Source: a virus
DNA length: 30,196 bases
IMG/VR virus record: IMGVR_UViG_3300048797_000039
Span: 1-30,196 of that record
Direction: 5' to 3' (one strand)
The notes beneath the pieces were generated by a model that saw only the letters and a list, made by a program, of their open reading frames with translations, searched no databases and had not been told where the DNA came from. Position 1 is the first letter of the stretch. Each line of letters starts with the position of its first letter. A program made the translations under genes and the position numbers. This document shows, piece after piece, positions 9,701 through 25,412 of the stretch.

Positions 9701-11976
9701 CGCGCGATATGCTTGAAAAAGGCTTGACCGTGGCAGCCGACAAGACCTTCCTGAGAATGTCACCAGAGGAAAACCATGCTTTCATGCAGGCAATGGACGT
9801 TGGAGATACAAAGTATTTCGAGGCTCACCCAGAACTCAAGGGCATGGCCGATGTGATCGACAAGATGTTCACGGACAAAGCCGAGCAAATTCAGAGGTTG
9901 GGCACTGGCGTAATGCAGGAGATCAGGGAAAACTACTTCCCGCACATCTGGGACAGAGAACCCACCGGCGACAAGCTCAAGCAGATTTACATGGGACTGT
10001 CCAAACGCCCTCTGGAGGGCACCAAAGCCTTTAGCAAGCACCGTGTATTCGATGACGTCAACGCAGGTTTGGAAGCTGGTTACAAGCCGATATCGGACAA
10101 TCCGTTGGATCTGGTCGCACTCAAGATGGTAGAAATGGACAGGTACATCGCTGCCCACCAGACCTTAAAAGGCATGGAAGATGCCAATAATGGGGCTTTA
10201 CTGCTGCTCAAGGCGGGCGACAAAGGGCCGCAAGGCTACTCGGACATCAACAAGTACAGCTTTATTACTCGCGATCTTGGGCATGGGCCGGAGAAGCTGC
10301 GCTACGTGGTAAGGGACGATGTGGCCCAGGTCTTGAACAACTACCTTTCGGCCAGTCTGTACCATAACCGCTACATCGGCAAGCCGTTTACTGGCTACAT
10401 GAAGGCCGCCAATACGCTGAACCAGTTTCAATTGGGAGTGTTTTCAGCCTTCCACGCCGGGTTTACCTCGATGGAAGCCGTGATCTCCCATGCTGCATTG
10501 GGAGTCAAGTCATTGTCAGAAGGGAACTTTGCTGGGGCCGGGCATTATTTCGCCACCGCGCCGGCTGCTTGGATCACCAATCCGCGTATGGGCGGCAAGA
10601 TCATGGAAGAAATGCTCAAGCCCGGGTCGCATCCTGAAATGGCACAGATCATCCAAGGACTGCAAATGGCTGGTTTCCGCTGGCAGATGGACAACCGCTT
10701 CCGGACAGACTCAACCAAACAGATGATCGAGGCTTGGAACAAAGGGAACAAGTTGACCGCTGGGCTGCGCTCGATCGGTGCCGTGGTGGAACAGTCTGCC
10801 CGGCCTATCCTTGAATGGCTGGTCCCAAGGCAGAAGTTTGGTGTCTTCGGGGAATTGATGAACAAGTGGATCAAGGAAAATCCTGACGCCAGCCATGAAG
10901 AAATGCGGAATTCAGCCCAGCAAATCTGGAATCGTGTGGACTCCAGACTTGGGCAGGTCGTCTATGACCGCCTGTTCATGCATAACGTCACCAAGAACAT
11001 GCTCCAAATGCTCATTCGAGCCCCGGGATGGACTGGTGGCACGATTCTGGAGGTTGGTGGAGGCATGACTGACCTGGCCAAGTACGCCGCCGCTGTGGTT
11101 CAAGGCAAGAAACCGCCAGGACTGACAGACCGTTCCGCCTATACGCTTTCGATGCTGACCGTCACTGCTTTGACCAATGCGGTACTGACTGCCGCTTTCA
11201 CTGGGGAAAGTCCTCAAGACTGGCGCGACCTGGTAGCTTTCAGATCCGGAAACCTGGACGAATACGGCCGGCCGGAGCGGTTCATGCTGCCAACCTACAT
11301 GAAGGACGTGTACGCCTATTCACAAGCCCCTGCAATGACCTTGGTGCATAAGTCACATCCTCTGCTGTCGCTCGGCGCCGAACTGATCAACAACAAGGAC
11401 TATTACGGCACGCAGATCCGCTCCGAGGACTCAAATCTGTTGACCCAACTCGCACAGTCTGCCGGCCATGTAGCCAAAGCCTTTACGCCGTTCTGGATGC
11501 GCGGGGTAGCGAAGGAACAAGAACGTGGCGGGACATTGCTATCTGAGATGGCTCCGCAGATCGGTGTCATGCCAGCCCCATCAAGCCTGAACAAGACCGA
11601 TGCTGAAAAGCTGGCTAGCAAGTTCGCCGCCGATCGACTCCCACAAGGCTCAAGGACTCAGGAACAAACAGACCAAGCAGATGCCAAGAGATCACTCTAC
11701 GTCGCGCTGCGCAAAGGCGATACAGCCAAGGCTCAGGAACTATTCAAGCAAGGTGAGGCTGATCATGTGTTGACTGCCAAGGACTATTGGGCTGCGGTAA
11801 AGAAGTCTACCAAAGATCCACTGGTCAATTCGTTCAAGAACCTGACTTATGACCAAGCTGTGCAGGTTTATGACGCGGCGACTGATGACGAGAAGAAGAA
11901 GCTACGTCTGCCGTTCATCGAAAAAAAGTTTCAAAATATTCGCCATCAAGCCGCATTAGGAATCAGTGCTGAGTGA
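739..11976 (+). CDS. Giant polyvalent phage protein (3,745 aa) interrupted by an intein
   Basis: A single unbroken frame encodes a virion-type multidomain protein, presumably ejected with the DNA. In order: an N-terminal segment starting MNVTLPSGRIITDVPE; a hydrophobic Gly/Ala segment near residues 240-275; a FtsK-gamma-like winged-helix segment near 563-614 (ISKLRRYYPQ..AARVIKQLEDDGVVG); a motif typical of polyvalent linkers near 1015-1035 (FALTGSNREADVAAAHGQ); a large polyvalent-associated domain near 1300-1450 (FGFRGGQFGNWV, MSFGARGSG, then HEWFH at 1414-1418, a zincin-like HExxH); a conserved domain near 1727-1900 beginning YWHGSASGDLRGG, possibly ADP-ribosyltransferase-like; a second zincin-like motif HEIAVH at 1942-1947; a conserved domain split by an intein at 2216-2538 and resuming with SNYKELLLTL and IEEIQSDW; a long helical region; and an LPD38-like end near 3460-3560. 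Bcep22-like podophages carry comparably huge virion proteins. Exact domain names need a profile search. Confidence 0.9.
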   Translation: MNVTLPSGRIITDVPEDVTQSQIAARVPAAWLVAPNENTPVPVHDSVVNESFAPENRTLFGPQDYAATPNKNPGINFDKSGNPIPVGMNTTVENEARATGALASTPQDMMAKTAQFLQRGNRHVSPTVQNAEQLKPISADEIAANDATMFKPTESLPDVPVDQDDVRHIPLMMRGAASALANSGDNPFTMAGIPKPIAGIANQFTMKAIDSATDGLASSQVDGFKEANTAPTSTTQHVMAGLGSFAGFVLSPTTIASVGAPAAISALARVVGDSAIVDMAKIVASQSTGLGLALTAQSMGQAIDNPDDAKQILAEAAKSGAGMGAIFGAMSRFMPEASVSQFLGRAVGNNVALNMLNGTSPTDNRPLEDRVFDAAVNTFFSIHGAGGTARSQLDQLAKNIKYAQFNTHQAAIDALNPDGAQMRKITEAPDLDTAIAAAKDATNVEHKTVLQILQGIKQLPEVKNVSGISEANAPSGNAGGTEGRGDNGAPTNDDLNGGGQHATGDILARGAGGIQGSAEEPQPVLGRGAELHPAERTGEPQGTEELPAADTQAALERRNQPERDAMYGLAKGLAERVGSIGISKLRRYYPQFNEMTAARVIKQLEDDGVVGAQNIKNGSHDFIGEQNAIHKPEAGEVVKQPNGESENGGSEGGGIQRGQQGNEVAESNGYAVKPAENNKTAPSITVRPDKRIDVTGSTPEQLKGARDSLGIKGAIIGNSGNAIFPKGTDLAALKKAFGMAEEPKPKRAFIAAQSLIPRLRQLGGVNIEHMKDITGESDVRKTGAVGVFSKNGRGLDDLATTLADEGFPIDTSDVDGGVQQLRDHINDALAGHPVLTHSAQDAQLSADQEAEHRDSIRREAKELGINMVGRKFSDVESEVLNATKEKDSNTYADLSDKDAQKVDDLMLKLQNAIGEDGTEKIFSEVTKAYKDKSAQEYYDELANRFTEALNEHEKSNADRGAQTGAGENAAHGEDFQLQSQSNAEAIAQELKTAKTAREAEAKVAADQEVGDFALTGSNREADVAAAHGQQDLLAKPAQESTAPIADFGEKIEGARKDLAAAMKKEYSDDDIASLPLSKIWPADLSDKIEDPYVAAIAFAARQELPSRPRVAYKVARWVEQVKTLRSLASMMIGSDTVRAKAEALLNENKALQVFKAKVSLLESIDRSQWGRIGSVGEFPNAYRYEPDGENKSKEVPSPTVKVQIDGRTEYYPGAKSVADVIDKVNEKLGVAPKEVKMKFEVRGRGESYFINKAGDSEYRHLMEFKTSKEALDYRNSHYDDLVKAWDGVKERDNVKETDVRGAENRPRTAQDWRKGKDVSTEQFSEQFGFRGGQFGNWVSQGKNIKERQGMLNGAYDALMDLSDILGIPPKALSLNGDLGMSFGARGSGSASAHYESDNLVINLTKTRGSGTLAHEWFHALDNYFQRNRNAPMDHTNQTRFITYKPEPMFVRKDGKGTPMTRAQLETLQKSRPDVAIYDQQYWKPDPNHPQGVRPEVEEKFAGLVQALNDSPMTKRASIIDAGKAEGYWSRIIERAARSFENYIIAKMAEKGYNNDYLANVVDISNFKRDEGRYPYLKQEELAPVVEAFDNLFGEMQTKETDKGTALFSRTNDQDEQVHRLLDAHAGEKDYTREDAIHDYTSGKRLDANGKEYEAMYSRETDKADAAVRKILAHTPDSLKQTLLDVHEGKDKEALQAMMDAGKVKVITAEQGRGIVGDKLFAKTTDQNVYWHGSASGDLRGGNTGLHLGTRLAAKQALEARIGIPATGEWDGTREYGKTLLAGEDTLDRIHRETNSFPKSGLNAGEPGNPVPKEDYYPRKVLKYADGTDMPMDIKPNILPYKLDTEMSNTAYTPRPDWHANGYMRRQIKLGNAKSGYYYKNEGEDAGSISVVVPNGKHVVEVKYSKDGKAQAFYNPSDATTYFIADNLPKDTSTAELRGLVRHEIAVHALNLGRDSTEFKGILKQLDILKGAGNKAVKEAFARVPEGTAPEHVAEESLAYLVQYHPELSLTKRVIAWFRNAIRSILPKGKLSDWANSLTTDDLQYMAQTALAKSYQAERQPIGEGVMASKPHEAFYSQLKVAMRDAPDKIFGNAKSISDWLNANASKLGIKKAEIEATGLDDWLKLQGKVTKADVQNFLDQNGVQVKDVTLGGFRNEWEILDENTGKRIGNTYASEREARNAANSSPVGENPIVNQLPSKETSGGTKFASYQLPGGPLSRDTEILTHEGWKRIDAVEIGEDVLTRRDDDAGLEWSEVEAKPEIYAEKLYHFASQSINMRVTACHKMVVKRRRRSQAGIFRVTAQELWDMAECVVPLTGKWQGNAADTIYDLPAKDVAELIGWYIAEGSPTVSPTGHKSTLAIAQSRKANSAKCTRIEALIDRLGFKWNYSGEQYYLSIKTMPRGLVEMLHAQGKSGEKYVPGFMFDFSPDILQSLLDGLLLGDGCLAKQEKRKPRWTYFTNSRQLADDVQVLALLTGKRGTVKQRPNGLYAVGINSKEWAGIDDAKHAIVDYNDTAYCVTVKNHSIYVRANGVAAFTGNSNYKELLLTLLAKPKLPWMDAPEIKKAQDALYNEFPDAKNIVMYRPSRGESARYNQLYDELVNAIHNAENKKDQEQGRFISSHFDQPNILAHIRFNERTDAEGAKVLFIEEIQSDWGQQAKKNGFLRDPKPIEKVIQEKYGRKLPEDVYDWSAKKLESAGVDSALIADWSDSLKKSGRVLSAPMVGDTKAWTSLALKRMIRYAAENGFDKIAWTTGEQQAARYDLSKQVELVRAEHTNKQGVFDLTFWDKGGKQFDIGLIPSEMLADHVGKDLAEKIVKQPLNKSEDYTGLDLKVGGEGMKGYYDQIVPQVANDILKKLGGGKVEDISVSPKKAGEPNIEKLSNLKQQGFTITPELRNKVMNEGMPLFSKTADKLKEHEAIKAATDSASEAWDGIKRAFAPQYRSPEAMEVARQLTEHLGEKEMADIRFKQKLNDAIKEDDGATTMAERARDMLEKGLTVAADKTFLRMSPEENHAFMQAMDVGDTKYFEAHPELKGMADVIDKMFTDKAEQIQRLGTGVMQEIRENYFPHIWDREPTGDKLKQIYMGLSKRPLEGTKAFSKHRVFDDVNAGLEAGYKPISDNPLDLVALKMVEMDRYIAAHQTLKGMEDANNGALLLLKAGDKGPQGYSDINKYSFITRDLGHGPEKLRYVVRDDVAQVLNNYLSASLYHNRYIGKPFTGYMKAANTLNQFQLGVFSAFHAGFTSMEAVISHAALGVKSLSEGNFAGAGHYFATAPAAWITNPRMGGKIMEEMLKPGSHPEMAQIIQGLQMAGFRWQMDNRFRTDSTKQMIEAWNKGNKLTAGLRSIGAVVEQSARPILEWLVPRQKFGVFGELMNKWIKENPDASHEEMRNSAQQIWNRVDSRLGQVVYDRLFMHNVTKNMLQMLIRAPGWTGGTILEVGGGMTDLAKYAAAVVQGKKPPGLTDRSAYTLSMLTVTALTNAVLTAAFTGESPQDWRDLVAFRSGNLDEYGRPERFMLPTYMKDVYAYSQAPAMTLVHKSHPLLSLGAELINNKDYYGTQIRSEDSNLLTQLAQSAGHVAKAFTPFWMRGVAKEQERGGTLLSEMAPQIGVMPAPSSLNKTDAEKLASKFAADRLPQGSRTQEQTDQADAKRSLYVALRKGDTAKAQELFKQGEADHVLTAKDYWAAVKKSTKDPLVNSFKNLTYDQAVQVYDAATDDEKKKLRLPFIEKKFQNIRHQAALGISAE
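2129..2404 (+). CDS. Nested 91-aa protein inside the giant gene
   Basis: This ORF runs in the +1 frame relative to the giant gene. Its ATG has a consensus GGAGG at 2118-2122 with six bases of spacing. The product (MSAEFLKLTHPPAMLEALKD...) has an ordinary globular composition: amphipathic helices, aromatic residues (LYWDEEPSYIP) and a basic end. The giant frame over the same bases is a low-complexity Gly/Asn/Glu/Ala linker with no domain. That contrast, plus the strong ribosome site, argues that the nested frame is the constrained one here. Function is unknown. The alternative is a chance open frame, since long same-strand shadows occur in Gly/Ala-rich DNA. Confidence 0.55.
   Translation: MSAEFLKLTHPPAMLEALKDGVITERQLMMISMVGGNTQPGIFSHAALAEYREALKNLNLYWDEEPSYIPQSVLVSHKELKNYQPPTRKPH
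2618..2791 (+). CDS. Nested 57-aa phage protein inside the giant gene
   Basis: This ORF is too short for ordinary gene callers and lies in the same +1 frame as the nested ORF at 2129. AGGAG at 2607-2611 is followed by six bases and then ATG. The product is basic and begins MPYTSLKQERWSNSPTGKAK; the segment KVAEFNAASKGMKLPK resembles the pattern '(E)F(D/N)xxSKGxKLP' seen in many small uncharacterised phage proteins. The giant protein over this stretch is Gly/Glu/Asn/Gln-rich linker. It ends with TAA just as the giant frame resumes ordinary domain sequence. Function is unknown; both frames may be translated. Confidence 0.55.
   Translation: MPYTSLKQERWSNSPTGKAKMGVAKVAEFNAASKGMKLPKATGMLSSPQKITKLRRP
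3587..3697 (+). CDS. Nested 36-aa basic helical peptide inside the giant gene
   Basis: This is the third ORF in the same +1 frame with a strong ribosome site: GGAGG at 3576-3580, six bases, then ATG. The peptide (MNTKKAMQIVARKLALERMQ...) is Lys/Arg-rich and predicted to be almost wholly helical. Opposite it the giant frame is again linker-like (Ala/Gly/Asn/Gln/Glu). It is short, so coding status is less certain than for the other two. Confidence 0.38.
   Translation: MNTKKAMQIVARKLALERMQRMAKISSSKVKATLKQ
7384..8352 (+). mobile_element. Class 3-like intein with LAGLIDADG homing endonuclease
   Basis: Residues 2216-2538 of the giant protein (323 aa) form a Hint-type intein. Block A reads LSRDTEILTHEG. 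Block B is VTACH with T2280 and H2283. Block F is AYCVTV with Cys2517 at the F:4 position. Block G is FTGN ending in Asn2538, followed by Ser2539 as the +1 nucleophile. The first residue is Pro2216, which cannot act as the usual N-terminal nucleophile. Cys at F:4 and Thr2536 at G:5 match class 3 inteins, in which the F:4 Cys attacks the N-terminal junction; the third class 3 signature, Trp at B:12, is Met2285 here. Two LAGLIDADG motifs are present, LIGWYIAEG (Glu2345) and LLDGLLLGDG (Asp2442), both with their acidic residue, so the endonuclease may be active. Removing the insert restores LPGG-SNYKELLLTL, a conserved-looking phage motif. Confidence 0.88.
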
Positions 11977-12220
11977 TTATCTCTGAATCCGGCAGGATGA
12001 TCGAAGGCAGTGCTTCCTTTAGCCGGTTATCGAAGTCTTTGGCCTCTGCTGCGGTAGCAAGCACCACATGAAGCCCGTCATCCTGAGACACCAGCACAAC
12101 GGTAGGCATGTCCTCAGGCTTCATGGCGTTTAGTGGCTCAATATCCTGATCTGTAATTAGCATCTCGACTATGCCGAGCTTGCGAAAGACGAGTGCTAGA
12201 GCTTTGTGAAATTCGTTCAT
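11963..12220 (-). CDS. Uncharacterised small phage protein (85 aa)
   Basis: This is the last gene of the long minus-strand operon. Its 3' end overlaps the end of the giant gene tail to tail by 14 bases. The protein alternates strand and helix (VEMLITDQDIEPLNAMKPED, then PTVVLVSQDDGLHVVLATAAEAKDF), which looks like a small alpha/beta fold, and it has no membrane segment, Cys cluster or known motif. Its start shares an ATGA overlap with the end of the KTSC-domain gene, so it is probably translationally coupled. Function is unknown. Confidence 0.7.
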   Translation of the reverse strand: MNEFHKALALVFRKLGIVEMLITDQDIEPLNAMKPEDMPTVVLVSQDDGLHVVLATAAEAKDFDNRLKEALPSIILPDSEIITQH

Positions 12221-12438
12221 TTCGCCACCTTCTTGTATGGGTGAGCAGAGTTGCTCTTGAAATGCTGGCCGAAGTGCTTGCCGATCGACGTTGCACTCAT
12301 CAAGTCTTGATGTTGCTTGGCTGTGACGTTATCGTATGAATACGTCGAGCCACCCTTGAATCTGATGTGCATTTGATTGGTTGCAGGATCGTGGCTGATG
12401 GCTTCGATTTGTGAGGATGTTACTGGTTTCATTTCCAT
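12217..12438 (-). CDS. KTSC-domain protein
   Basis: The 73-residue product is almost entirely one KTSC-type domain: PVTSSQIEAISHDPATNQMH is followed by IRFKGGSTYSYDNVT and then a helix with SIGKHF. This is the family pattern 'V-S-S-x-I...L-x-V-x-F-x-x-G-x-x-Y-x-Y-x-x-V...S-x-G-x-x-F'. The domain is common as a small stand-alone phage or bacterial protein; its biochemical role is not established. The chosen ATG at 12438 has AGGAG six bases upstream; a second Met two codons later is less well placed. It overlaps both neighbours. Confidence 0.8.
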   Translation of the reverse strand: MEMKPVTSSQIEAISHDPATNQMHIRFKGGSTYSYDNVTAKQHQDLMSATSIGKHFGQHFKSNSAHPYKKVAK

Positions 12439-12653
12439 GATGTTCTCCTTGCTCTAATTGACCGCCATTTAGCGCGGCGGAGGGCGGCAGCTTTTGCTGC
12501 ATATTTTTTGACAAGTTCATCAAATTTCATCTGAACAAATGGCTCTGATCGAGCATTTATAGCACTGAGCATGTTTCGCATCTGAAGATTCTTCTCTGCC
12601 TGCGCTCGCGTATAAGCAGGATCTCCATATATTGATCTTCCGAAGAGTCTCAT
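12429..12653 (-). CDS. Basic helical protein of unknown function (74 aa)
   Basis: The product is Arg/Lys/Ala-rich and helical (YTRAQAEKNLQMRNML..., FDELVKKYAAKAAALRR) and ends in a strongly basic tail (KWRSIRARRTSWK), which could contact nucleic acid or a membrane surface. Its ATG overlaps the stop of the upstream glycosyltransferase gene (TAATG), and it overlaps the KTSC gene by 10 bases. No family is recognised. Confidence 0.6.
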   Translation of the reverse strand: MRLFGRSIYGDPAYTRAQAEKNLQMRNMLSAINARSEPFVQMKFDELVKKYAAKAAALRRAKWRSIRARRTSWK

Positions 12654-13591
12654 TATAGGACTCCCGGTGTAATGTGGTTGATGTGTAAATCCTTGCGCCG
12701 ATCATGCCATGCGATAGCCTGACCTAACATCATATTCAAAAGTGGTACAAGGTCTTCTTGCGGGATGCCTTCTGGCCTGATCTTCTGGCCGATTTCCAGA
12801 CAGGCACGATACAAACTGAACAATTGGTAGTGGTTGAGTTCACTTAATCTAGCAAGCTCATCGCCTTTAGCCGCCAATAGTTTGCCACCAAAGCCAAGAT
12901 TTTTTTCGCTTGAATGTTGAACGTGAACATGCTGCGGATCGGCCACCACGTAGAACCCTTTGCCAAGTGCTGCGGCATATCCGTAGTACACATCCGGGGT
13001 AACGTCAAATCCGCCAATACGGTTCAAGAACTCAACTGAGTACCCGGCTATCACCGAACCATAAGCCAGACGTGCAATTCCTTCACCAGCCTGGACGTAG
13101 CCCGATTCGGTTGGGTAGCCTGAGACTGATGGTGATATTCCACCGTCAGGTAAAAGATTGCCATTCCAGTCTACGGAAGGATCAGCAAAGTACATCGTTG
13201 TGGCTATGGCATCACATGGATGCTTTTCTACTGCTTCCATGCATACGCGCGCGCGACCGGGAAGACTATAATCGTCTGCGCTACATTGCAGGATGTATTC
13301 CGACTCTGGAAACTTCTCTGCGGATACCTTGGCGGCGAACATGAAATGCTCGCTGAGCGATGCAAAAGTATTGACCCCGGGCATCGGGGTTTTCAGCCAC
13401 GTAACCGAATGATCCGCTCCGCGCGGTGCCTCTCTGACAGCACGCTCGATATGAATCCATGAATCATCAGAAGATTGCATGTCGGTAAACAAGATGTTAC
13501 ACGGGATGTCTTGTGCAAGAGCGCTGGCGCAGGCTTTGTACGTGTGTTCGCTTTTGTTAAAACTGTTGACCCAGAATACCGAGCGTTTCAT
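12653..13591 (-). CDS. Family 2-like glycosyltransferase
   Basis: The 312-residue product has the layout of a GT-A fold transferase. An N-terminal strand and helix region (SVFWVNSFNKSEHTYKAC) leads to an acidic metal-site-like motif, CSADDYSLPGR, with Asp106-Asp107, where GT2 enzymes place the DxD that holds the nucleotide-sugar metal. A later GGFD segment matches the acceptor-side region of the family. No membrane helix is seen, so it is presumably cytoplasmic or peripheral. It lies downstream of the sugar-activating genes and is the most obvious candidate to transfer their product. ATGA and TAATG overlaps couple it to both neighbours. The exact donor and acceptor cannot be read from the sequence. 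Confidence 0.72.
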   Translation of the reverse strand: MKRSVFWVNSFNKSEHTYKACASALAQDIPCNILFTDMQSSDDSWIHIERAVREAPRGADHSVTWLKTPMPGVNTFASLSEHFMFAAKVSAEKFPESEYILQCSADDYSLPGRARVCMEAVEKHPCDAIATTMYFADPSVDWNGNLLPDGGISPSVSGYPTESGYVQAGEGIARLAYGSVIAGYSVEFLNRIGGFDVTPDVYYGYAAALGKGFYVVADPQHVHVQHSSEKNLGFGGKLLAAKGDELARLSELNHYQLFSLYRACLEIGQKIRPEGIPQEDLVPLLNMMLGQAIAWHDRRKDLHINHITPGVL

Positions 13592-14424
13592 TTATGCAAT
13601 CCCTCAATTATGGTTGATGAAGATGTTGCTCGATACTCTTTCTTGTGACCGCCCTCCCGCACGACAACCTTTACACCCAACTCCGCGAGCAATTCATCTT
13701 CAGGAAGATGGTCTTCAATTTTGCCATGAACATAAAAATCCGGTCTGAAGCATTTAATGTTGTCGAAGGGGAAAAGTGAGCGCGTGATGATAACCTTGTC
13801 AACCGCCCTCAGTGAGGCAAGTGTAAAAGCGCGGCTATGTTCGTCCACAATTGGTCTGCCTGGTCCCTTGTCAACAAACCGATCCGCAACCATCGACACA
13901 ATGACATAATCAGCATACATCTTGGCGAGATTGAAAAGTCTGATGTGATCGTGGTGTAGAACGTCAAAAACACCGTGGCACATAGCCACTACTTTTGTTT
14001 TGTCTATCTCGCGGAACTGGTGCATATAGATGAAGTCTTTTGTTCTTGGATGGATATTCAGGGCGTAATTTATCTCATGTTCCCTGTATTGCCCCCATGC
14101 TTGACCCTCATGGAGTTTGAACTTGCTCATCTGATCAGTAACATCAAGATGAAAGATATGGAACACTGCCTCAAGCGGATCGTTAGTGACTTTCATTGAC
14201 CCAAGCAGAACCGCTCCACTTGCGTCAAGTTCGGTTTCCTCAAGCACCTCTCTCACCACGGCTTCATACGGAGTTTCACCATCCTCCATGCGACCGCCAA
14301 ACAATGCCCACATGCCAGGTTCAGGGATGGATGGAATGTCATCGCGCTTCATCAGCAGGTATTTGTCCCCGACCGTCAGGACGCAAAACGCTACCTGTGT
14401 TTTTGGTTCGTAATCTACAATCAT
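13588..14424 (-). CDS. Nudix hydrolase-nucleotidyltransferase fusion
   Basis: Residues 1-135 are a Nudix domain. The box at 44-66 (GRMEDGE...REVLEETEL) matches GX5EX7REUXEEXGU except that the last Gly is Glu. Residues 145-278 are a HldC/glycerol-3-phosphate cytidylyltransferase-type domain: CHGVFDVLHHDHIRL places HHDH at 157-160 where the family has HxGH, and RATSSSTII near the end matches the second nucleotide-binding motif (STS). Known NadM-Nudix enzymes fuse similar activities in the opposite order. The domain pair could make a nucleotide-activated sugar or polyol and hydrolyse a nucleotide diphosphate by-product. The Gly to Asp change in HxGH may alter activity. Its ATG overlaps the stop of the HNH gene. 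Confidence 0.82.
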   Translation of the reverse strand: MIVDYEPKTQVAFCVLTVGDKYLLMKRDDIPSIPEPGMWALFGGRMEDGETPYEAVVREVLEETELDASGAVLLGSMKVTNDPLEAVFHIFHLDVTDQMSKFKLHEGQAWGQYREHEINYALNIHPRTKDFIYMHQFREIDKTKVVAMCHGVFDVLHHDHIRLFNLAKMYADYVIVSMVADRFVDKGPGRPIVDEHSRAFTLASLRAVDKVIITRSLFPFDNIKCFRPDFYVHGKIEDHLPEDELLAELGVKVVVREGGHKKEYRATSSSTIIEGLHK

Positions 14425-14987
14425 TTGATCCCTTGGAAATTATTAGCTTTGGAGCAATTGGCGCTCACGCTGATGATCTGCAAATTTTGGTGGACATGAA
14501 GACCAGACACTTGGCTATTTTGAAGCGGCACTATATGGTCTACATGGCACGGGAAGTACACACGAATTACTGCGGCTGTTCTATAAATCATTTTGATTCT
14601 TTCAATATCTGCCCACGGAGGGCAAGCACGTAGTTTTGCTGCATGGCGCTTCGCCCAACGTGCTGCACATTCCGCAAGATGCGCTTTCTGGTAAGCGGCC
14701 ATATTTGCCTTGAATTTCTCAGGATTGGCTTTCCCCCATGCCGTCGCTTTTGCTGTCATATACGCCGAATATTTTTCATGATTTGCCTTGCGCCATCTCG
14801 CTGTTGCTGCTGCACACATCTCAGGATGTGCTTTCCGGTATGGTGCATCCCGCATAGGAATGCACACAACGCAACCTCTATTTGAGGTTTGGCGCTCCGC
14901 TATATGTCCATTACAGCACGGTTTCCCGGTAAAGTACCGTTTCAGCCCAAGGCGAATCGCATCTTTTCTTAAAATAACGGCTTTCAT
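14421..14987 (-). CDS. HNH endonuclease-like protein inserted in the operon
   Basis: The 188-residue product has an N-terminal segment with GKPCCNGHIAER and CVVC (zinc-binding-like), a middle of repeated R/K-A-N/H-P-E helices, and a C-terminal HNH core (FPCHVDHIVPL...SGLHVHQNLQI...NCSKAN) with the HVDH metal motif. Such free-standing HNH proteins in phages are usually selfish homing endonucleases. It lies between a radical SAM gene and the Nudix fusion. Unlike its neighbours it has a 4-base gap upstream and no Shine-Dalgarno, consistent with later insertion, although its stop overlaps the next start. Confidence 0.78.
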   Translation of the reverse strand: MKAVILRKDAIRLGLKRYFTGKPCCNGHIAERQTSNRGCVVCIPMRDAPYRKAHPEMCAAATARWRKANHEKYSAYMTAKATAWGKANPEKFKANMAAYQKAHLAECAARWAKRHAAKLRACPPWADIERIKMIYRTAAVIRVYFPCHVDHIVPLQNSQVSGLHVHQNLQIISVSANCSKANNFQGIK

Positions 14988-14991
14988 ATTT

Positions 14992-16125
14992 TTAACAAAT
15001 GAAATTTTTATGAAGTGGCTCTGGCCCGGTTGGCTTTGAGATTAGCTCAATACCCTTAGCGTGACGATCAAGAGCTACGTTTATGTAAAAAGCATGAGGT
15101 AATGTACCCATCATCGTCTGCGCATCAAATGCCGGCGAGGCGAGGTAATCCATGACGCGCTTGTACCGTGCAGATTTGAATATGTCGATGAACCGTTCCT
15201 CGGTATAGTTGCCGATATGGAACTTGGAATATCGCGCATTGAAGAACTGGCCGGCCGGTGCAACCAACCCACTCCCGCTTAACTGCAAAAGGAATTGTGG
15301 GCCGTAAGCTCTCTGATACGATGCCTTGCCATTGATCTTGTTCCACTTCACCACGATCTTGGTCTGGTCATTGCTCATGGCCTCGGCTTGGTGCAGCAGA
15401 CCTTGCAGTGCGTCATAGCCGGCATAGTTCATGCCCAGTGTGCCTTGCTCATCATCTGCGCAGTGCTTGATCATTGCAAAGTCAACACCCAAGTCCAAGC
15501 CAAGCTGCGCGAACGGAATGATCTCATTTGCCCATTCAGGCATGAGCACCATCTGTATGCCTAAAGTCACTTTCAGCCCGAGCCGCTTCTTTAACTCAAC
15601 CGCATAGCGAATATGACTCATGGCGCGGTCGAAGACGTGGGTATGCTCTTTGCCTTTGTACATGATCTCGGCGTATCCTTCCGGCGTTCCTGCAGCAACA
15701 GTGAAGCGCACCCAGGACAAGTGCGGCAAGACCTGTTCCATCTTCTCAGGCTTAAGTTCCCATCCGTTTGTTGCGTTGGCGACATTGATGCCTAACGTGG
15801 CAGCGTGCTGGATGAATGGGACGTAGGCTTTTGACAGAGTGGATTCACCATCTGATGTGAGCTCGACAGCCTTGATTCCGATTTCGGCAAAGTCATCAAG
15901 TAAATCTAGAGCTTGTTTAGTTGTGATATTTGGGCGTTCTTGCGTTTCTTGAATGGCGGCGTAACAGAAGCGGCACATGCTTCCACAACCTCGCGTCAAA
16001 GCCATATCAACCCCAATTGGAGCAATCTGTTCACCGGCTTCCCACGCATTGACACGATCCATGTGCCAACCCAACTTATGCTCATCAAGCATAAGCAAAC
16101 CATCTTTTGTTTGTATCCCGCTCAT
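14992..16125 (-). CDS. Radical SAM enzyme
   Basis: The 377-residue protein has the radical SAM cluster motif CGSMCRFC (Cys47, Cys51, Cys54), followed by a TIM-barrel-like pattern with ELTSDGE (the GGE-equivalent SAM-binding strand) and later VRFTVAAGTPEGY. The C-terminal third lacks an obvious second Cys cluster. Radical SAM proteins use a 4Fe-4S cluster to cleave SAM and start radical chemistry; the substrate here is unknown. The N-terminal segment (HKLGWHMDRVNAWEAGEQIAPI) resembles the start of the second radical SAM enzyme at 19833, so the two are likely distant paralogues working on related substrates. Its ATG overlaps the preceding stop. Confidence 0.85.
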   Translation of the reverse strand: MSGIQTKDGLLMLDEHKLGWHMDRVNAWEAGEQIAPIGVDMALTRGCGSMCRFCYAAIQETQERPNITTKQALDLLDDFAEIGIKAVELTSDGESTLSKAYVPFIQHAATLGINVANATNGWELKPEKMEQVLPHLSWVRFTVAAGTPEGYAEIMYKGKEHTHVFDRAMSHIRYAVELKKRLGLKVTLGIQMVLMPEWANEIIPFAQLGLDLGVDFAMIKHCADDEQGTLGMNYAGYDALQGLLHQAEAMSNDQTKIVVKWNKINGKASYQRAYGPQFLLQLSGSGLVAPAGQFFNARYSKFHIGNYTEERFIDIFKSARYKRVMDYLASPAFDAQTMMGTLPHAFYINVALDRHAKGIELISKPTGPEPLHKNFIC

Positions 16126-16445
16126 TTCATTACCATGCCTCTCAAATGCCTTAGACTATTTCGATCCCCGAGCGGAGCAAGCCAGACGGTGATGCCTGGG
16201 TCAAGATTTTCTTTTAGATAATCTTCAATATCTAACAGTATTTGGCCACGTAAAGATGCTGATAATTCTTTTGTTAATTTCAGAATAACTTTACAATCAT
16301 CATCGCATGAAATGACCTTTGCATAAACGTGGCCAATATGATTCTGGACAAGAGCTATCTTAATAACTTCTGGAGTATTAGATAGTGTTTTTACTTTATA
16401 GGTCGGCACTGCTGCGAATTCAATTGTCACGATATTTATCTCCAT
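16122..16445 (-). CDS. Unknown 107-aa protein of the sugar cassette
   Basis: This is a small alpha/beta protein with a strand-rich N-terminal half (INIVTIEFAAVPTYKVKTL) and a C-terminal helix with a conserved-looking tail (LDIEDYLKENLDPGITVWL, then GDRNSLRHLRG). There are no cysteines beyond one CDDDC, no membrane helix and no recognised catalytic motif. It is wedged between the TPP enzyme beta subunit (26-base overlap) and a radical SAM gene (ATGA overlap), suggesting a partner or assembly role for one of them. Function is not assigned. Confidence 0.65.
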   Translation of the reverse strand: MEINIVTIEFAAVPTYKVKTLSNTPEVIKIALVQNHIGHVYAKVISCDDDCKVILKLTKELSASLRGQILLDIEDYLKENLDPGITVWLAPLGDRNSLRHLRGMVMK

Positions 16446-16953
16446 ATTCGACCATGATTACCGGTCCTGGCATTTCAAGAGCATTTCGATAAAGCGGCAC
16501 GATAGAACTCGGCCCATCTAATTCGATCACCGGGATAGTGGTTAGCATCTTCCTGAATGCGGCAACGTGATTCTGACAATGCTGCGGTCCAGGATGAAGT
16601 GGCTTTGTGGAACCAACTGCAGTCCTGATAATTACCTTTGGCCGAAAGCCACTGAGTTGCGCAATCTTGTCCAAGTGGTTCACAAGTTGGTCAAGTGCCA
16701 GCAGCAGAAAATCCATTCTTGGGTAAACGCAAATTGGGATATATCCTTCAAGAGATAAACCAGTACAGAAACCCATCTGCATCTGTTCAGCAACGGGGAA
16801 CTCAATGCGGCGATCCATTGGTATGTTTGCAAACGTGGGACACATCGCCTGCCCACCATAGACAACATTCTGGCCGACGAATAATGTCTTTGGATGACGC
16901 GCAAGCATGGTCATTGCCTCAGTCAAAGCCTCAATGTATTTAGATTGCGGCAT
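16420..16953 (-). CDS. TPP-dependent dehydrogenase E1 beta-like subunit
   Basis: The product (177 aa from the ATG at 16953) matches the pyrimidine-binding half of E1 enzymes. RIEFPVAEQMQMGFCTGLSLEG holds the Glu that activates TPP; PRMDFLLLALDQLVNHLDK follows, then PKVIIRTAVG and PGPQHCQN as in E1 beta subunits. It is much shorter than usual E1 beta (about 325 aa) and lacks the C-terminal transketolase domain. A TTG three codons upstream touches the GGAG at once, so the ATG, nine bases from it, is the better start. It overlaps the alpha subunit gene, consistent with a 1:1 complex. The substrate is unknown; sugar or keto-acid chemistry in the cassette is likely. Confidence 0.75.
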   Translation of the reverse strand: MPQSKYIEALTEAMTMLARHPKTLFVGQNVVYGGQAMCPTFANIPMDRRIEFPVAEQMQMGFCTGLSLEGYIPICVYPRMDFLLLALDQLVNHLDKIAQLSGFRPKVIIRTAVGSTKPLHPGPQHCQNHVAAFRKMLTTIPVIELDGPSSIVPLYRNALEMPGPVIMVEYGDKYRDN

Positions 16954-17638
16954 TTGTGGCAACTCCGTAGTGAGGATAGGTGCGCGTGTAAGTGTAATAA
17001 ATTATATTTTGTATATTATTCAAAATTGATTTGGTTTGCTCTATATCTCCCACTGCTCCCCATACTTTGTCGGTTGGCGTGTTCGTTGAAAGTCCGTTAT
17101 CCTCAATAATGAATGTGATCGGCAAATGTTGCCCCAGAGAATATCTATAAGCCTCGCTGAATATCCCCGTCGTGGCGCACATATCTCCGACAAAGCACCA
17201 GACCTTTTCACTTCCACCGCGCCGCTTGATTCCAGCAGCCACACCGACCGCAATAGGGCATATCCCGCCGACGATGGCAGATGTGAAGAACTTGTGCTCA
17301 TGGTTCATGATGTTCATGGAGTGTCCGGCCATAATCTCTTGGCGGAGCCAGTCCTCTGGTATGCCATGGAGTAAGGCGTGGTAATGATTTCTCCAAGTTG
17401 AAAATACATAGTCCTCTGGTGAGATGTCCTTGAATATCTCGATCAACTGAGATTCGTTGCCACCGGATAAGTGTACAGGCCCATGAATCTCCCCACGCTC
17501 AAAAGCATCGGCTATGGAGCGTTCAAAGGCGATGAGCTGCTGCGCATTTATACCATCGGGATATGTTTTTGTTATAGTCCCGTCTTTGTGACGACAAAAA
17601 CTATATGGATGATTGCCTTTTGTAATTGGTTTATTCAC
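16940..17638 (-). CDS. TPP-dependent dehydrogenase E1 alpha-like subunit
   Basis: The 232-residue protein carries the TPP/Mg motif region GDMCATTGIFSE...IIEDN (Gly151-Asp152 and Asn181), the GDG-X(n)-N pattern of TPP enzymes with Met in place of the second Gly. Upstream it has RNHYHALLHG and IVGGICPIAVGVAAG, matching the E1 alpha order. Transketolase and keto-acid E1 enzymes move two-carbon or acyl units; the split alpha/beta form resembles pyruvate or acetoin dehydrogenase E1. The start is GTG at 17638 and overlaps the stop of a 57-aa gene (GTGA). No E2 or E3 gene is present, so it may work as a decarboxylase, ligase or transketolase-like enzyme instead. Confidence 0.8.
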   Translation of the reverse strand: MNKPITKGNHPYSFCRHKDGTITKTYPDGINAQQLIAFERSIADAFERGEIHGPVHLSGGNESQLIEIFKDISPEDYVFSTWRNHYHALLHGIPEDWLRQEIMAGHSMNIMNHEHKFFTSAIVGGICPIAVGVAAGIKRRGGSEKVWCFVGDMCATTGIFSEAYRYSLGQHLPITFIIEDNGLSTNTPTDKVWGAVGDIEQTKSILNNIQNIIYYTYTRTYPHYGVATNAAI

Positions 17639-17808
17639 TCCTCACCATCCACCCAATTAGTTAGATAGTATTTACCACGCCAGTAATACATCGTTACTGT
17701 GCCACCTGAGTCTTGCGCTACTCTCTTTACACCAAACATCCTCGCAAGCAGAAGCTCATACCAACTTGCCTTTAAGGTATGTAATGCCGCAATTATAGGC
17801 TCATTCAT
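17635..17808 (-). CDS. Small 57-aa cassette protein
   Basis: A short ORF fills the gap between the E1 alpha and isomerase genes exactly. Its ATG overlaps the isomerase stop (ATGA) and its TGA overlaps the GTG start of E1 alpha. The product (MNEPIIAALHTLKASWYELL...) has an N-terminal helix and a beta-like C-terminal half with aromatic residues (GTVTMYYWRGKYYLTNW). Both couplings argue that it is a real gene. Function is unknown. Confidence 0.7.
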   Translation of the reverse strand: MNEPIIAALHTLKASWYELLLARMFGVKRVAQDSGGTVTMYYWRGKYYLTNWVDGEE

Positions 17809-18269
17809 TTCAACCCTTTCAATTCCCGATAAATCTGATGGATCAAAGTCAGATGATGGTTTTCTGCATCCTGCATGTTCTCGCCGTGCTGGATGCAGTA
17901 AGTTGCCAACACGCTTGCCGCGTTCTTTTCAAAATTCCCGACAATCGCAAATGTGCGCATGCCGATCTTGTTTGCCGCGACAATGGCCTTGATGATGTTG
18001 GGTGAGTTGCCGCTGCCGGATAGGGCGATAAGCAAATCCTCTGGATCGCACAGCAAGTTAATCTGCGAAGAAAAGATGTGCTCGAAGCCGTAGTCATTGC
18101 CGATAGCAGTCAGTGTTGCCGTATCGGCAGGAATTGCCTGCGCCCGGATGCCGCACAGAATCAAGTCATTCGCGATGTGCAAAGCGTTTGCAGCAGAGCC
18201 GCCATTGCCGATGATATAGACCCGTTTGGCAACCTTGACTGCCGCCAGTAATTCTTTGTATGTGTTCAT
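17805..18269 (-). CDS. gmhA: SIS-domain sedoheptulose-7-phosphate isomerase-like protein
   Basis: The 154-residue protein is a SIS domain of the GmhA type. GNGGSAANALHIANDL holds the sugar-phosphate loop, LIALSGSGNSPNIIKA the second phosphate-binding loop, and QDAENHHLTLIHQI the C-terminal His-bearing helix. GmhA converts sedoheptulose 7-phosphate to D-glycero-manno-heptose 7-phosphate, the first step to ADP- or GDP-heptose. The protein is shorter at the N-terminus than E. coli GmhA (about 192 aa). Where E. coli has HFAEEL this has HIANDL, so the catalytic Glu appears to be Asp, as in other phage and capsule-cluster relatives as far as I can judge. It is followed in pathway order by kinase and nucleotidyltransferase genes just upstream, coupled by TAATG. 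Confidence 0.82.
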   Translation of the reverse strand: MNTYKELLAAVKVAKRVYIIGNGGSAANALHIANDLILCGIRAQAIPADTATLTAIGNDYGFEHIFSSQINLLCDPEDLLIALSGSGNSPNIIKAIVAANKIGMRTFAIVGNFEKNAASVLATYCIQHGENMQDAENHHLTLIHQIYRELKGLK

Positions 18270-19159
18270 TAAAATACATCCTTCTCGTTAATTGCTACCG
18301 TCCCGAAATACCCAACAGATAACCCAGATGCCTTGGCTGAATAGTGGGTTGCCTCCATGTAATCAAAGCCTTTAGCCAGAGCAACAGCGAAAGCACTTAT
18401 AGCTACATCGCCAGCACCACAGACATCAAACACTTCATGCGCCATTGATGGGACATGGACAGGATCGCAACCACCCATGAATAATGTCATGCCATCAGCA
18501 GCACGAGTCAGTAGCACAGCCTTGAATCCGCATTGCCTTATGAGTGCTTGTGCCTTATTGCCCAACTCAACTTCGTCATCCCATCCGCCGACCAGTTCCC
18601 GCATTTCGTCAATGTTCGGCTTAATCAGATCCGCGCCACGGTATTTGTCGTAGTTGTGACCTTTCGGGTCTACCAAAACAGTCTTGCCGAAGTTCTTGGC
18701 CATGTTAATCATCGAACGGATATGCTTCAATGTGCCTTTGCCATAGTCGGAAAACACGATAATGTCAGAGGACATCACATCCAGGAAGAACTGATCGCGC
18801 AACTGATCAGCCAAATTATTCGATGGGGCATGATCAAAGTCGATGCGGGTGATCTGTTGTTGCCGTCCTATGATGCGCAATTTCTGCGTAGTTCCATTTT
18901 CCCAGTCATAGATTAATGTTGAGCATGGCACAAGGTCAGCAAAGTGTTTCCCGTATTCGTCATTCCCGACAATAGACAGGAGCGAAGCATCGGCACCCAT
19001 GGACACACAGTTGCGGGCAACGTTTCCAGCCGCACCGGCGCGGCGTTCTTCCCTTAAGTGCTTAACCACCGGCACGGGAGCCTCTTGGGATAGCCTTGAT
19101 ACGTCACCGTACCAATAACGATCCATCATTGAGTCACCGACTACAAGAATTTTAAGCAT
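18269..19159 (-). CDS. hldA: HldA-like heptose-7-phosphate kinase (PfkB family)
   Basis: The 296-residue protein matches the N-terminal kinase domain of HldE/RfaE. VVGDSMMDRYWYGDVSRLSQEAPVPVV is the family signature at the N-terminus; RAGAAGNVARN follows, then SDYGKGTL, VDPKGHNYDKYRGADLIKPN and the PfkB catalytic loop VCGAGDVAIS with the catalytic Asp. HldA phosphorylates heptose 7-phosphate at C1 using ATP, in the cytoplasm. Length is close to the family's separate kinase form. It overlaps HldC by 8 bases and the isomerase by TAATG, so the three steps are cotranslated. In the second half of GAGDT, Thr is Val, a minor deviation. Confidence 0.88.
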   Translation of the reverse strand: MLKILVVGDSMMDRYWYGDVSRLSQEAPVPVVKHLREERRAGAAGNVARNCVSMGADASLLSIVGNDEYGKHFADLVPCSTLIYDWENGTTQKLRIIGRQQQITRIDFDHAPSNNLADQLRDQFFLDVMSSDIIVFSDYGKGTLKHIRSMINMAKNFGKTVLVDPKGHNYDKYRGADLIKPNIDEMRELVGGWDDEVELGNKAQALIRQCGFKAVLLTRAADGMTLFMGGCDPVHVPSMAHEVFDVCGAGDVAISAFAVALAKGFDYMEATHYSAKASGLSVGYFGTVAINEKDVF

Positions 19160-19688
19160 TCTTATCCAATTTATTTCGTATTTGAGTTTCTAGTGGCGTA
19201 TATTGGGTACGCAAAATATCAACTTCTTTAATCAATTCATTCCAGTGTTTATTAACGCAGGTATCTTGTGCTTGTTTCTCCCTCAGCATTTCACCATTCA
19301 TAATCGCGGTAGAACTGAAAACTCGTCCAGTATGAAACCTTACTTGACCGCCAAAAGACTCAACCAAGTCTTGCTCTGGTAATCGCCCGTGATACTCGAT
19401 TCCCTTGACGTAAAAATCAGGTTGAATTAGTGTGATAGCAGACTCCCATCCGTTATGCAAAAACACTTCATCTACGCAACGCAATTCACGCAACATCGCC
19501 AACCGATCATCTTGATTGAATAATGGCCTGCCTTTGCCGCGTAGGGTTAGCGAATCGCCACCATTGATTGCATGATCTGGAGTCACAGCTACAAACAATT
19601 TATCGCCAAGCGATTTTGCGAATTTTAGATATTCGAGATGGCCTGGATGGAGGATCTCGAAACAGCCTAGTGCGAGGACTGTAATCAT
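19152..19688 (-). CDS. hldC: HldC-like heptose-1-phosphate nucleotidyltransferase
   Basis: The 178-residue protein begins VLALGCFEILHPGHLEYL with the HxGH nucleotide-binding motif intact, followed by PDFYVKGIEYHGRLPEQDL and FSSTAIM, the second motif of cytidylyltransferase-fold enzymes. This matches the C-terminal domain of HldE, which makes ADP-heptose from heptose 1-phosphate. A C-terminal extension of about 45 residues (INKHWNELIKEV-type helices after REKQAQD) is unlike the minimal domain. In the standard pathway a phosphatase (GmhB) acts before this step and is not encoded nearby. The start overlaps the stop of a 54-aa gene. Confidence 0.85.
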   Translation of the reverse strand: MITVLALGCFEILHPGHLEYLKFAKSLGDKLFVAVTPDHAINGGDSLTLRGKGRPLFNQDDRLAMLRELRCVDEVFLHNGWESAITLIQPDFYVKGIEYHGRLPEQDLVESFGGQVRFHTGRVFSSTAIMNGEMLREKQAQDTCVNKHWNELIKEVDILRTQYTPLETQIRNKLDKNA

Positions 19689-19849
19689 ATAAAATCCGTA
19701 GGTTTGATCCGCTTAAAGTAAATTAACCCTTTTATCCAGCGCATTGGGTTATACCATTTCCGACATGCAGTTTTGTAAATTCCTGTGCCGGTTGTAACAC
19801 AATCCTTAAATACGGCAGCAGAAATTTGATCTTCAAATGAAGTTTTCAT
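19685..19849 (-). CDS. Small 54-aa basic cassette protein
   Basis: This short ORF lies between the second radical SAM gene, which it overlaps by 17 bases, and hldC, which it meets with ATGA. The product (MKTSFEDQISAAVFKDCVTT...) is basic and contains two cysteines and an aromatic, Lys/Arg-rich C-terminal half (KWYNPMRWIKGLIYFKRIK) that could be an amphipathic membrane-surface helix. The tight coupling supports translation. No family is recognised. Confidence 0.65.
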   Translation of the reverse strand: MKTSFEDQISAAVFKDCVTTGTGIYKTACRKWYNPMRWIKGLIYFKRIKPTDFI

Positions 19850-20864
19850 GAGGCACCCCGTTAATCAATTCTTCCAAGTACAGATTGCTCTGATGCATTC
19901 TGCAATTTATTCGGCATTCAGAAATGTCCAATTCGTTTCTGACATACTCCCAATTAGCCTTGCGCCGGTCCGAATGCCAAATTTCACGGAACGTCTGCTT
20001 GTTCACATTTCCGAGGATAAACTTCTCGTCCAGCAAGTGATTGGCAGAACACGAGTACAAGTCACCCTGCTCCATCAAAAACGCCCAGATGTATGGTGTG
20101 GCATGGCATTTTGTGTATGGGAATTCATGCGTAGCAAAAGCATTTCCTCTCACAATCAGGTTGTCTACAGACTTGGGTGCATCAATGATGTCTGCATATT
20201 GTGGCTTGATGGACTTGATGCTTTGCGTGAAAGGCTTGACCACCACGTAGTCGAGGCCGATGTCCTTGCCGATCTGTTTCAGCGTTTCAACTTCGTGCTG
20301 GTTCTCAGGAAGCAATACCATCTGCGCGCCGATCACGCAATCGCCTTTGCGCTGCACCGCATCCGCCAAGTTAGACAGCACACGGTCAAAGTCTTCAGGC
20401 TTGGTTCTATGAACACGGGCATACGTCTCTCTGGTCCCGGCATTGAGCGAGACTTTTATCCACTTAATCTGGTCAATCGGATGGAGCTTGTTCAACAGTA
20501 CGCCATTGGTGGTGAAGGCGACATCTATCCCGGCGGTCAGGCAAGACTCAACCATGTTGTTGATCTTCGGGTGGACGAGAGGTTCACCATTGCCGGCAAA
20601 CATGATCGACTTCACGCCGAGGAATGACATTTCATGCACAAGGTCATCGAACTTTGCGACATCAAGGAAGTCTGATTTGTAGCCTATGTAATCTACGCTA
20701 CAAAAGGTACAGCGATGCTGGCACACTCCGGTTGGTGAGACTTCCAGATAAATTGGGTAGATATGCTTTGCCTTCTCCCATGAATCCATGCCATCGAGCA
20801 ACTGCGCCACACGATGCGGGTGGAAAACCAGCTTTTGCGAATCAAGGCGATAAGGATCGTTCAT
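19833..20864 (-). CDS. Radical SAM enzyme with SPASM-like C-terminus
   Basis: The 343-residue protein has the SAM-cluster motif CQHRCTFC (Cys48, Cys52, Cys55), the GGE-equivalent FAGNGEP, and VSLNAGTRETYARVH in the barrel. Its C-terminal part carries additional cysteines (YSCSANHLL...SECRINCRMHQ) typical of SPASM-type auxiliary cluster binding. It is the first enzyme gene of the operon and overlaps the RHH regulator (ATGA). The N-terminal segment HPHRVAQLLDGMDSWEKAKH resembles that of the radical SAM at 14992. Homologous-looking proteins occur beside polysaccharide genes, but the reaction here is unknown; radical dehydration, epimerisation or C-C chemistry on a sugar or peptide are options. 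Confidence 0.87.
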   Translation of the reverse strand: MNDPYRLDSQKLVFHPHRVAQLLDGMDSWEKAKHIYPIYLEVSPTGVCQHRCTFCSVDYIGYKSDFLDVAKFDDLVHEMSFLGVKSIMFAGNGEPLVHPKINNMVESCLTAGIDVAFTTNGVLLNKLHPIDQIKWIKVSLNAGTRETYARVHRTKPEDFDRVLSNLADAVQRKGDCVIGAQMVLLPENQHEVETLKQIGKDIGLDYVVVKPFTQSIKSIKPQYADIIDAPKSVDNLIVRGNAFATHEFPYTKCHATPYIWAFLMEQGDLYSCSANHLLDEKFILGNVNKQTFREIWHSDRRKANWEYVRNELDISECRINCRMHQSNLYLEELINGVPHENFI

Positions 20865-21022
20865 TTGATTGCCTTCACACTAAGCATTAACGCCATCCGT
20901 ATCCCAGCACTCAAATTACCATTACCAAGTTTGCGCAGCCGAGTTGCAACCTCAGGGGGCAGCGAGACGTTATATCTCACCACTGGGGATTTGCCTATCA
21001 TTGGGCGGTTTATTTTTTTCAT
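20861..21022 (-). CDS. Ribbon-helix-helix regulator (53 aa)
   Basis: The small protein reads MKKINRPMIGKSPVVRYNVS, then LPPEVATRLRKLGNGNLSAG and a final helix. A beta-strand with alternating Arg/Tyr/Val (VVRYNVSLP) followed by two helices is the Arc/CopG/MetJ-like RHH DNA-binding fold. It is the first gene of the sugar operon and sits directly on its promoter, so autorepression is likely (inference). There is no Shine-Dalgarno before the ATG; the -10 box is only five bases upstream, so the mRNA would be leaderless. It ends in ATGA with the radical SAM gene. Confidence 0.75.
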   Translation of the reverse strand: MKKINRPMIGKSPVVRYNVSLPPEVATRLRKLGNGNLSAGIRMALMLSVKAIK

Positions 21023-25312: not shown

Positions 25313-25340
25313 ATTCTAAAGATATTTTCTAACTTGTCAA
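25313..25340 (-). promoter_or_regulatory. Leftward early promoter
   Basis: On the minus strand TTGACA (25340-25335), 16 bases and TAGAAT (25318-25313) make a near-consensus sigma70 promoter. It would start transcription about 25 bases before the HTH gene and drive the whole replication operon down to the hairpin near 21070. Confidence 0.75.
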
Positions 25341-25367
25341 CTTTATTTGCAAAGGCGTATTGACAAG
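25333..25367. promoter_or_regulatory. Inverted-repeat operator overlapping both -35 boxes
   Basis: CTTGTCAA at 25333-25340 and TTGACAAG at 25360-25367 are perfect 8-base inverted repeats with a 19-base gap. Each arm contains the -35 box of one of two divergent promoters, so a protein bound to the arms would block both. Part of the symmetry follows simply from two TTGACA boxes facing apart; the extra shared bases go beyond that. Confidence 0.5.
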
Positions 25368-25387: not shown

Positions 25388-25412
25388 GGCAACTCAACAA
25401 CGGGAGAACAGA

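Follow-up and report, generated by a model that had tools for sequence, protein, structure and literature searches.

A mobile phage cassette of radical SAM, thiamine and heptose-type genes, a candidate pathway to a C-branched sugar

The virus record IMGVR_UViG_3300048797_000039, a stretch of 30,196 bases (hereafter the window, whose coordinates are used throughout), carries on its minus strand a unit of 17 open reading frames (ORFs), transcribed from 21022 to 11963. In this unit, two radical S-adenosylmethionine (SAM) enzymes, rSAM1 and rSAM2, and a split E1-type thiamine diphosphate (ThDP) enzyme (subunits E1a and E1b) stand among genes for an activated sugar. We consider the chances about even that the unit encodes a nucleotide-sugar pathway, carried by phages and exchanged laterally, whose product is a C-branched heptose-type sugar with a ring modified by the radical SAM enzymes. 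A fuller proposal is put forward more tentatively: an undescribed pathway of phages and bacteria that may combine radical SAM chemistry with an exchangeable ThDP carboligase to make a C-branched heptose-type sugar of about nine carbons, rewriting host or virion glycans, one of the radical SAM enzymes having lost an auxiliary Fe-S cluster in one clade. The unit is a compact mobile cassette common to dozens of unrelated environmental (metagenomic) phages, with recognizable enzyme families, a conserved gene order, an exchangeable ThDP enzyme and a near-complete version on a bacterial chromosome. The first-pass annotation of this DNA had read an operon for an activated heptose-like sugar, which is supported here, and had missed the ThDP enzyme as the repeatedly exchanged core of the unit.

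We take the alternation of this enzyme between two ketone-acting ThDP superfamilies as the best single clue to the chemistry. An alignment scan of viral contigs recovered 87 loci with a relative of rSAM2 (a single-sequence scan of viral contigs gave no matches), and 80 of them were kept for counts. An enzyme of the E1 type is encoded in 52 of these, one of the acetolactate-synthase/YerE type in 18, both in none and neither in 10, several of which are short contigs. The mutual exclusivity gives p = 4e-11 by Fisher's exact test, the related loci not being independent and no correction for kinship having been made. On the rSAM2 tree the two types alternate at least seven times, and branches with support of at least 95 force at least five gains or losses of the acetolactate type. 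In locus L212, an SDR and an acetolactate-type enzyme occupy the exact slot of E1a and E1b, beside the same giant gene as in the window; the acetolactate-type gene is split there by an HNH ORF (L212:8175-8954) related to that of the window. For the acetolactate-type enzyme of locus L190, the closest entry in the Protein Data Bank (PDB) is 8rph (E 3e-108), which is JanthE, a YerE-like aldehyde-ketone carboligase (PMC12188165). Action on ketones is known from just three ThDP superfamilies, the YerE-like decarboxylases, the transketolases and the E1-type alphaKADH2 enzymes (PMC12247030). According to the same review, YerE-like enzymes branch sugars of lipopolysaccharide (LPS) and alphaKADH2 enzymes add C2 branches to antibiotic sugars, the units being derived from keto acids and the acceptors being keto-sugars. 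A repeatedly exchanged core drawn from two of these superfamilies would speak for a sugar with a C-branch or an extended chain, not for a plain heptose. Separately, the acetolactate-type ThDP ORF in the phage cassette of L190 (L190:3649-5850) begins with about 130 cupin-looking residues that have no Pfam match.

In the window the slot is filled by a minimal E1. As in alphaKADH2 enzymes, separate alpha and beta subunits carry the ThDP motif and the catalytic Glu, and the family keeps its ThDP and catalytic residues throughout (Glu59 and His128 of E1b each in 118/118 sequences, Gly151 and Asn181 of E1a each in 122/122). At 180 aa, E1b consists of Transket_pyr only, without the C-terminal transketolase domain that alphaKADH2 enzymes have on the beta subunit. 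Fused versions total about 400 aa, and some cassettes, such as that of L235 (see below), have full-length subunits. E1a, which has relatives in 108 viral loci, resembles pyruvate dehydrogenase E1-alpha (E 1e-18) far more than transketolase; its weak matches include split transketolase and DXS (6yak, E 1e-6).

The sugar made by the window is likely heptose-type, since its kinase is near canonical HldA, and is predicted only by class because the GmhA-like isomerase is divergent and GmhB is absent. The kinase scores 317.5 bits with TIGR02198 (heptose-7-phosphate kinase), just under the cut-off of 345, and matches HldA of PDB 4e84 across its entire length (E 5e-74), as a heptose-7-phosphate kinase should; its canonical-type motif is shared by only 7 of the 73 cassette-type kinases. 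The HldC-like nucleotidyltransferase reaches 93.8 bits with TIGR02199 against a cut-off of 181.5 and keeps both His residues of the HPGH motif. With the GmhA models, the isomerase scores 92-96 bits, well under their cut-offs of 209-276. It has H31, D35, E136 and H144 at the positions that we take to be metal ligands, a set other than the canonical H-E-Q-H of GmhA, and the alteration is kept across the cassette GmhAs (D in 61/68, E in 66/68). GmhB (TIGR00213) was found neither in the window nor in six related phage records, in line with its absence from the first-pass annotation, and its step may be supplied by the host. That annotation had also placed GmhA, HldA and HldC in pathway order, which is true along the plus strand only, whereas in transcription the order is rSAM1-HldC-HldA-GmhA. 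Further along the unit, a second HldC-like nucleotidyltransferase is fused to a Nudix domain; the nucleotidyltransferase half scores 76 bits with rfaE_dom_II, and the Nudix half has a counterpart in none of the fetched loci. NAD synthesis by an NMNAT-Nudix fusion was discarded as a reading of this ORF, the nucleotidyltransferase half fitting HldC best.

The two radical SAM enzymes differ in their auxiliary cysteines. In rSAM1 all cysteines expected for SPASM auxiliary Fe-S clusters are kept and are conserved in the alignment. Its nearest solved relatives by profile are BlsE (7vob, E 7e-12) and BtrN (4m7t, E 3e-11), enzymes that act on sugars or cyclitols; BtrN converts an alcohol to a ketone, the type of substrate that a ThDP carboligase would need. 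In rSAM2, the core CxxxCxxC motif is kept in 88/88 relatives and the four auxiliary cysteines are present in 85/88. All four are absent from the proteins of the window, L134 and L202, and also from those of L235 and L240. These five form one clade (support 100), and the joint loss is consistent with the disappearance of an entire cluster. Among solved structures, SkfB and PqqE come nearest to rSAM2; QueE-like deazaguanine chemistry, with 16.5 bits, was discarded. Directly before rSAM2 lies the gene of a small protein, X, with homologues of 65-115 aa. Searches with X gave no Pfam match, no significant fold match (the best PDB hit, DUF59 at E 0.07, is a lead only) and no match to an RRE-like (PqqD) fold; its structural model has a pLDDT of 66.6, with the core predicted with confidence. 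That X is a partner of rSAM2 is a guess. A third, shorter radical SAM family adjoins the E1-rSAM group in other loci (L118:6626-7489, L100:11669-12499, L114:1525-2409), in cellular and phage loci without heptose genes.

Cellular counterparts exist. Relatives of rSAM2 at E <= 1e-60 occur in 19/398 sampled genomes of Pseudomonadota, and the chromosome of one genome of this phylum (G072) carries, in a polysaccharide region, locus L235 with the order rSAM1-epimerase-GmhA-HldC/HldA fusion-E1a-E1b-X-rSAM2. Like the window, L235 has rSAM1, GmhA, HldC/HldA, E1a, E1b, X and rSAM2 in a single run, and an rSAM2 without the four auxiliary cysteines. It differs in its full-length E1 subunits (E1a is about 30% identical to that of the window), its fused HldC-HldA and its epimerase gene. 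Identity to the window is 69% for rSAM2, 52% for X and 49% for rSAM1, which is 51% identical to its phage relative in L150. The L235-type locus is present in 1/74 genomes of its family, a distribution that would fit the lateral gain of a surface-glycan locus. Related groups of E1 and radical SAM genes were seen in metagenome-assembled genomes of a Desulfobacterales member, a deltaproteobacterium and a member of the Nanoarchaeota.

Among phages, the cassette travels whole. Genes for the kinase, GmhA, E1a, E1b, X and rSAM2 all lie on one strand in 23 of the 80 viral rSAM2 loci, and the search for the same gene order suggested by the first-pass annotation found the exact order of the window, kinase(HldA/C)-GmhA-E1a-E1b-X-rSAM2, in 18. 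Beyond the cassette, the window has almost nothing in common with the related contigs, except for L212, where the giant gene is also present, the cassette stands beside it as in the window, and the same glycosyltransferase and Q85 (Table 1) are found. A conserved order with almost unshared flanks indicates that the unit moves as one. It is also a mosaic, as the closest relatives come from different loci: L185/L182 for E1, L212 for GmhA, L150 for rSAM1 and L134/L202/L235 for rSAM2. At the nucleotide level, a search against phages gave no direct match to the window. On one phage contig (L023:6607-11284), NeuA-, NeuC- and NeuB-like genes of a nonulosonic acid pathway directly adjoin the sugar cassette.

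What we infer of the substrates, the order of reactions, the C2 branching and the target runs as follows. The GmhA-, HldA- and HldC-like enzymes would supply a heptose-type sugar in activated form, with the host providing the 7-phosphatase step of GmhB. A ring position would be oxidised or otherwise modified by a radical SAM enzyme, for which rSAM1 with its nearest relatives BtrN and BlsE is the candidate. The mini-E1 would then attach carbon derived from a keto acid, probably a C2 unit of pyruvate, to give a C-branched sugar, which rSAM2 and its putative partner X would change further. Finally, the GT2-type enzyme would attach the product to a glycan of the host surface or to a part of the virion. 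Judged from gene content, alteration of the host surface glycan is the most likely role, because the bacterial homologues sit in polysaccharide loci and the last of the sugar genes in the unit encodes a glycosyltransferase. DNA glycosylation was discarded as a role, no base-hydroxymethylating enzyme having turned up among those window proteins that were scanned.

Several points weigh against a C-branched heptose-type product. The formation of a ketone by a radical SAM enzyme of this type is proposed by analogy only. The change from H-E-Q-H to H-D-E-H in the GmhA-like isomerase suggests a substrate perhaps other than sedoheptulose-7-phosphate. E1a and E1b are missing the C-terminal domain, and their resemblance to characterised E1 enzymes is no more than distant; in several loci E1 has no GmhA, HldA or HldC nearby. 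The exclusivity test, moreover, covers loci of limited length, many of them incomplete.

The same chemistry could instead serve the virion, with the sugar being added to capsid or tail proteins as particles are assembled and not to the host surface. The cassettes of many related phages adjoin, along with a GT2 gene and a methyltransferase gene, a recurrent gene family that we read as the major capsid protein. The cassette of the window, by contrast, is in a leftward region with replication-type genes, not in a structural operon, and converges on the giant LPD gene, and the bacterial counterparts are located in polysaccharide loci; we regard a virion target as unlikely.

A little less probable still, and the main rival for the chemistry itself, is that the unit only boosts ordinary ADP-heptose for the LPS core, with the mini-E1 as a transketolase giving sedoheptulose-7-phosphate and the radical SAM enzymes as accessories. 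Three of the four enzyme families of the Gram-negative ADP-heptose pathway (GmhA, HldA, GmhB, HldC) are present, the kinase is near-canonical and close to Burkholderia HldA (4e84), E1a has the weak matches to split transketolase and DXS given above, and its cyanophage counterparts are annotated as 'transketolase central region'. Nevertheless, E1a is much nearer pyruvate dehydrogenase E1-alpha, and its slot is repeatedly taken by acetolactate-synthase/YerE-type enzymes, which use 2-oxo acids. The window further departs from the known pathway in lacking GmhB, in a shorter GmhA-like protein with altered putative ligands, in an HldC far under its cut-off and in its additional radical SAM and ThDP steps, and the canonical motif is absent from most cassette kinases.

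We think it improbable that the radical SAM enzymes act on a peptide or cofactor, in the manner of enzymes for ribosomally synthesized and post-translationally modified peptides (RiPPs) or of SPASM maturases, with X as recognition element or substrate and the sugar genes as separate passengers. In its favour, most cassettes have small X immediately ahead of rSAM2, the cysteines are SPASM-like, and the solved structures nearest to rSAM2 are those of SkfB and PqqE. This idea has to contend with the fixed linkage to a sugar kinase, a nucleotidyltransferase and an isomerase, which unrelated phages share with a bacterial polysaccharide locus, with the sugar enzymes BlsE and BtrN as nearest relatives of rSAM1, and with the missing RRE-like (PqqD) match of X. 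It is very improbable that the phage carries a viperin-like or another nucleotide-based anti-phage system, since the weak matches of both enzymes to PADLOC pVip models (52 and 49 bits) are confined to the radical SAM core, the NCBIfam viperin model, with a cut-off of 180 bits, gives them 40 and 47, and the neighbours are sugar genes.

Parts of a C-branching pathway of this kind have known counterparts. The YerE-like and alphaKADH2 branching pathways (yersiniose, erwiniose, aldgamycin, kibdelomycin), likened here by superfamily description, also have a ThDP enzyme of either superfamily beside nucleotide-sugar genes; the minimal two-domain E1, the radical SAM enzymes and the heptose-type front end of the window are new by comparison, and no such pathway is reported from viruses in the literature examined. 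Cyanophages S-SM2 and P-TIM68 encode a fused E1-type enzyme, an HldA-like kinase, an HldC-like nucleotidyltransferase, a phosphoheptose isomerase and glycosyltransferases. They differ from the window in having no annotated radical SAM gene, a Zn-alcohol dehydrogenase before E1, and E1 as one fused ORF. In open-licence papers, no description was found of a phage or bacterial cluster with the full enzyme set, and among 50,697 phage records rSAM2 had no good isolate match, only four weak ones (22-27% identity). The claim of the first-pass annotation that no phage pathway with this set is described accordingly holds for the whole set in isolates and has to yield to the cyanophage clusters and to the dozens of metagenomic phages that carry the cassette. 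Phages with LPS-type sugar genes and these partial cyanophage counterparts were already known; the full combination of enzymes is new.

If correct, a C-branching pathway of this kind would extend the known biosynthesis of branched surface sugars by a radical SAM and thiamine route, traded among phages as compact cassettes. The cassette is a defined gene set with which to test which new sugar results and whether phage adsorption is blocked or redirected. The repeated swap of two thiamine enzyme superfamilies is a natural experiment pointing to the class of reaction, and the rSAM2 clade without the auxiliary cluster allows a direct test of the purpose of that cluster.

Table 1. ORFs of the unit in transcription order, followed by the convergent giant gene
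Feature	Position	Strand	Matches and remarks
A53, first ORF of the unit	20861..21022	-	ribbon-helix-helix-like by eye
rSAM1, radical SAM + SPASM	19833..20864	-	Radical_SAM 69.9 bits; SPASM 34.9 bits
B54, small ORF	19685..19849	-	no relatives in fetched loci
HldC-like nucleotidyltransferase	19152..19688	-	CTP_transf_like; HPGH motif
HldA-like heptose-7-phosphate kinase	18269..19159	-	PfkB; motif SQEAPVP (canonical-type)
GmhA-like SIS isomerase	17805..18269	-	SIS; PDB GmhA 5i01 E 1e-21
C57, small ORF	17635..17808	-	no relatives in fetched loci
E1a, ThDP-binding subunit of mini-E1	16940..17638	-	GTG start; E1_dh 55 bits; phrog_34187 E 4e-57
E1b, pyrimidine-domain subunit	16420..16962	-	TTG start; Transket_pyr 34 bits; phrog_34187; catalytic Glu59
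X, small conserved protein directly before rSAM2	16122..16445	-	homologue in 62 loci
rSAM2, radical SAM	14992..16125	-	Radical_SAM 45.2 bits; four auxiliary-cluster cysteines lost
HNH-type ORF	14421..14987	-	motif DHIVPL...HVHQNLQ; relatives in L179, L212
Nudix fused to second HldC-like nucleotidyltransferase	13588..14424	-	NUDIX 52.7 bits; CTP_transf_like 42.9 bits
GT2-type (GT-A) glycosyltransferase	12653..13591	-	5-row profile (A5): SpsA 1h7l E 2e-7, chondroitin synthase 1e-6
O74, small ORF of unknown role	12429..12653	-	
KTSC-domain ORF	12217..12438	-	PF13619 63 bits
Q85	11963..12220	-	50% over 62 aa in L212, where it also adjoins the glycosyltransferase and giant LPD gene
Giant polyvalent protein (LPD5, LPD1), 3,745 aa	739-11976	+	sugar unit converges on this gene

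Family assignments come from Pfam, NCBIfam, PHROGs and PDB searches. These and profile searches uphold the two radical SAM proteins, the split E1, the Nudix-nucleotidyltransferase fusion and the glycosyltransferase named in the first-pass annotation, as well as its 17 overlapping minus-strand genes, each at the coordinates first given. Neighbouring ORFs overlap by 1-26 nt at 15 of the 16 junctions, and the sole gap, of 4 nt, precedes the HNH gene. The HNH-type ORF had been counted within the sugar operon; it has no Pfam match, is called by its motif and is no sugar gene, but probably a mobile homing-type insertion outside the sugar pathway. With HNH ORFs in both the operon of the window and L212, homing endonucleases seem to favour these cassettes. 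The glycosyltransferase, also without a Pfam match, has relatives of about 40-42% identity in L212 and L190. A53, for which the Pfam search gave no match, is perhaps a regulator by its ribbon-helix-helix-like appearance; it was also tried as a relative of X and discarded (profile score -1.7). Just upstream of it, at 21056-21028, lies a promoter-like match (10/12), such matches being no more frequent in the scan than expected by chance.

To the right of the unit are replication and recombination genes (O-like and P-like replication proteins, NinB, RusA, RecE-like), and to its left is the giant gene. The giant protein has a LAGLIDADG_3 match at aa 2433-2497, inside an intein-like stretch (SRDTEILTHEGWKRIDAVEIGEDVL ... 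VAAFTGN|SN). Between the leftward and rightward gene blocks, at 25313-25387, divergent sigma-70-like promoter matches (11/12 each) were seen, with a whole-scan count not above chance. The rightward region includes a YdcK-type beta-solenoid ORF (25347-26180, plus strand; PF18836, 5 repeats) that matches phage families of unknown function.

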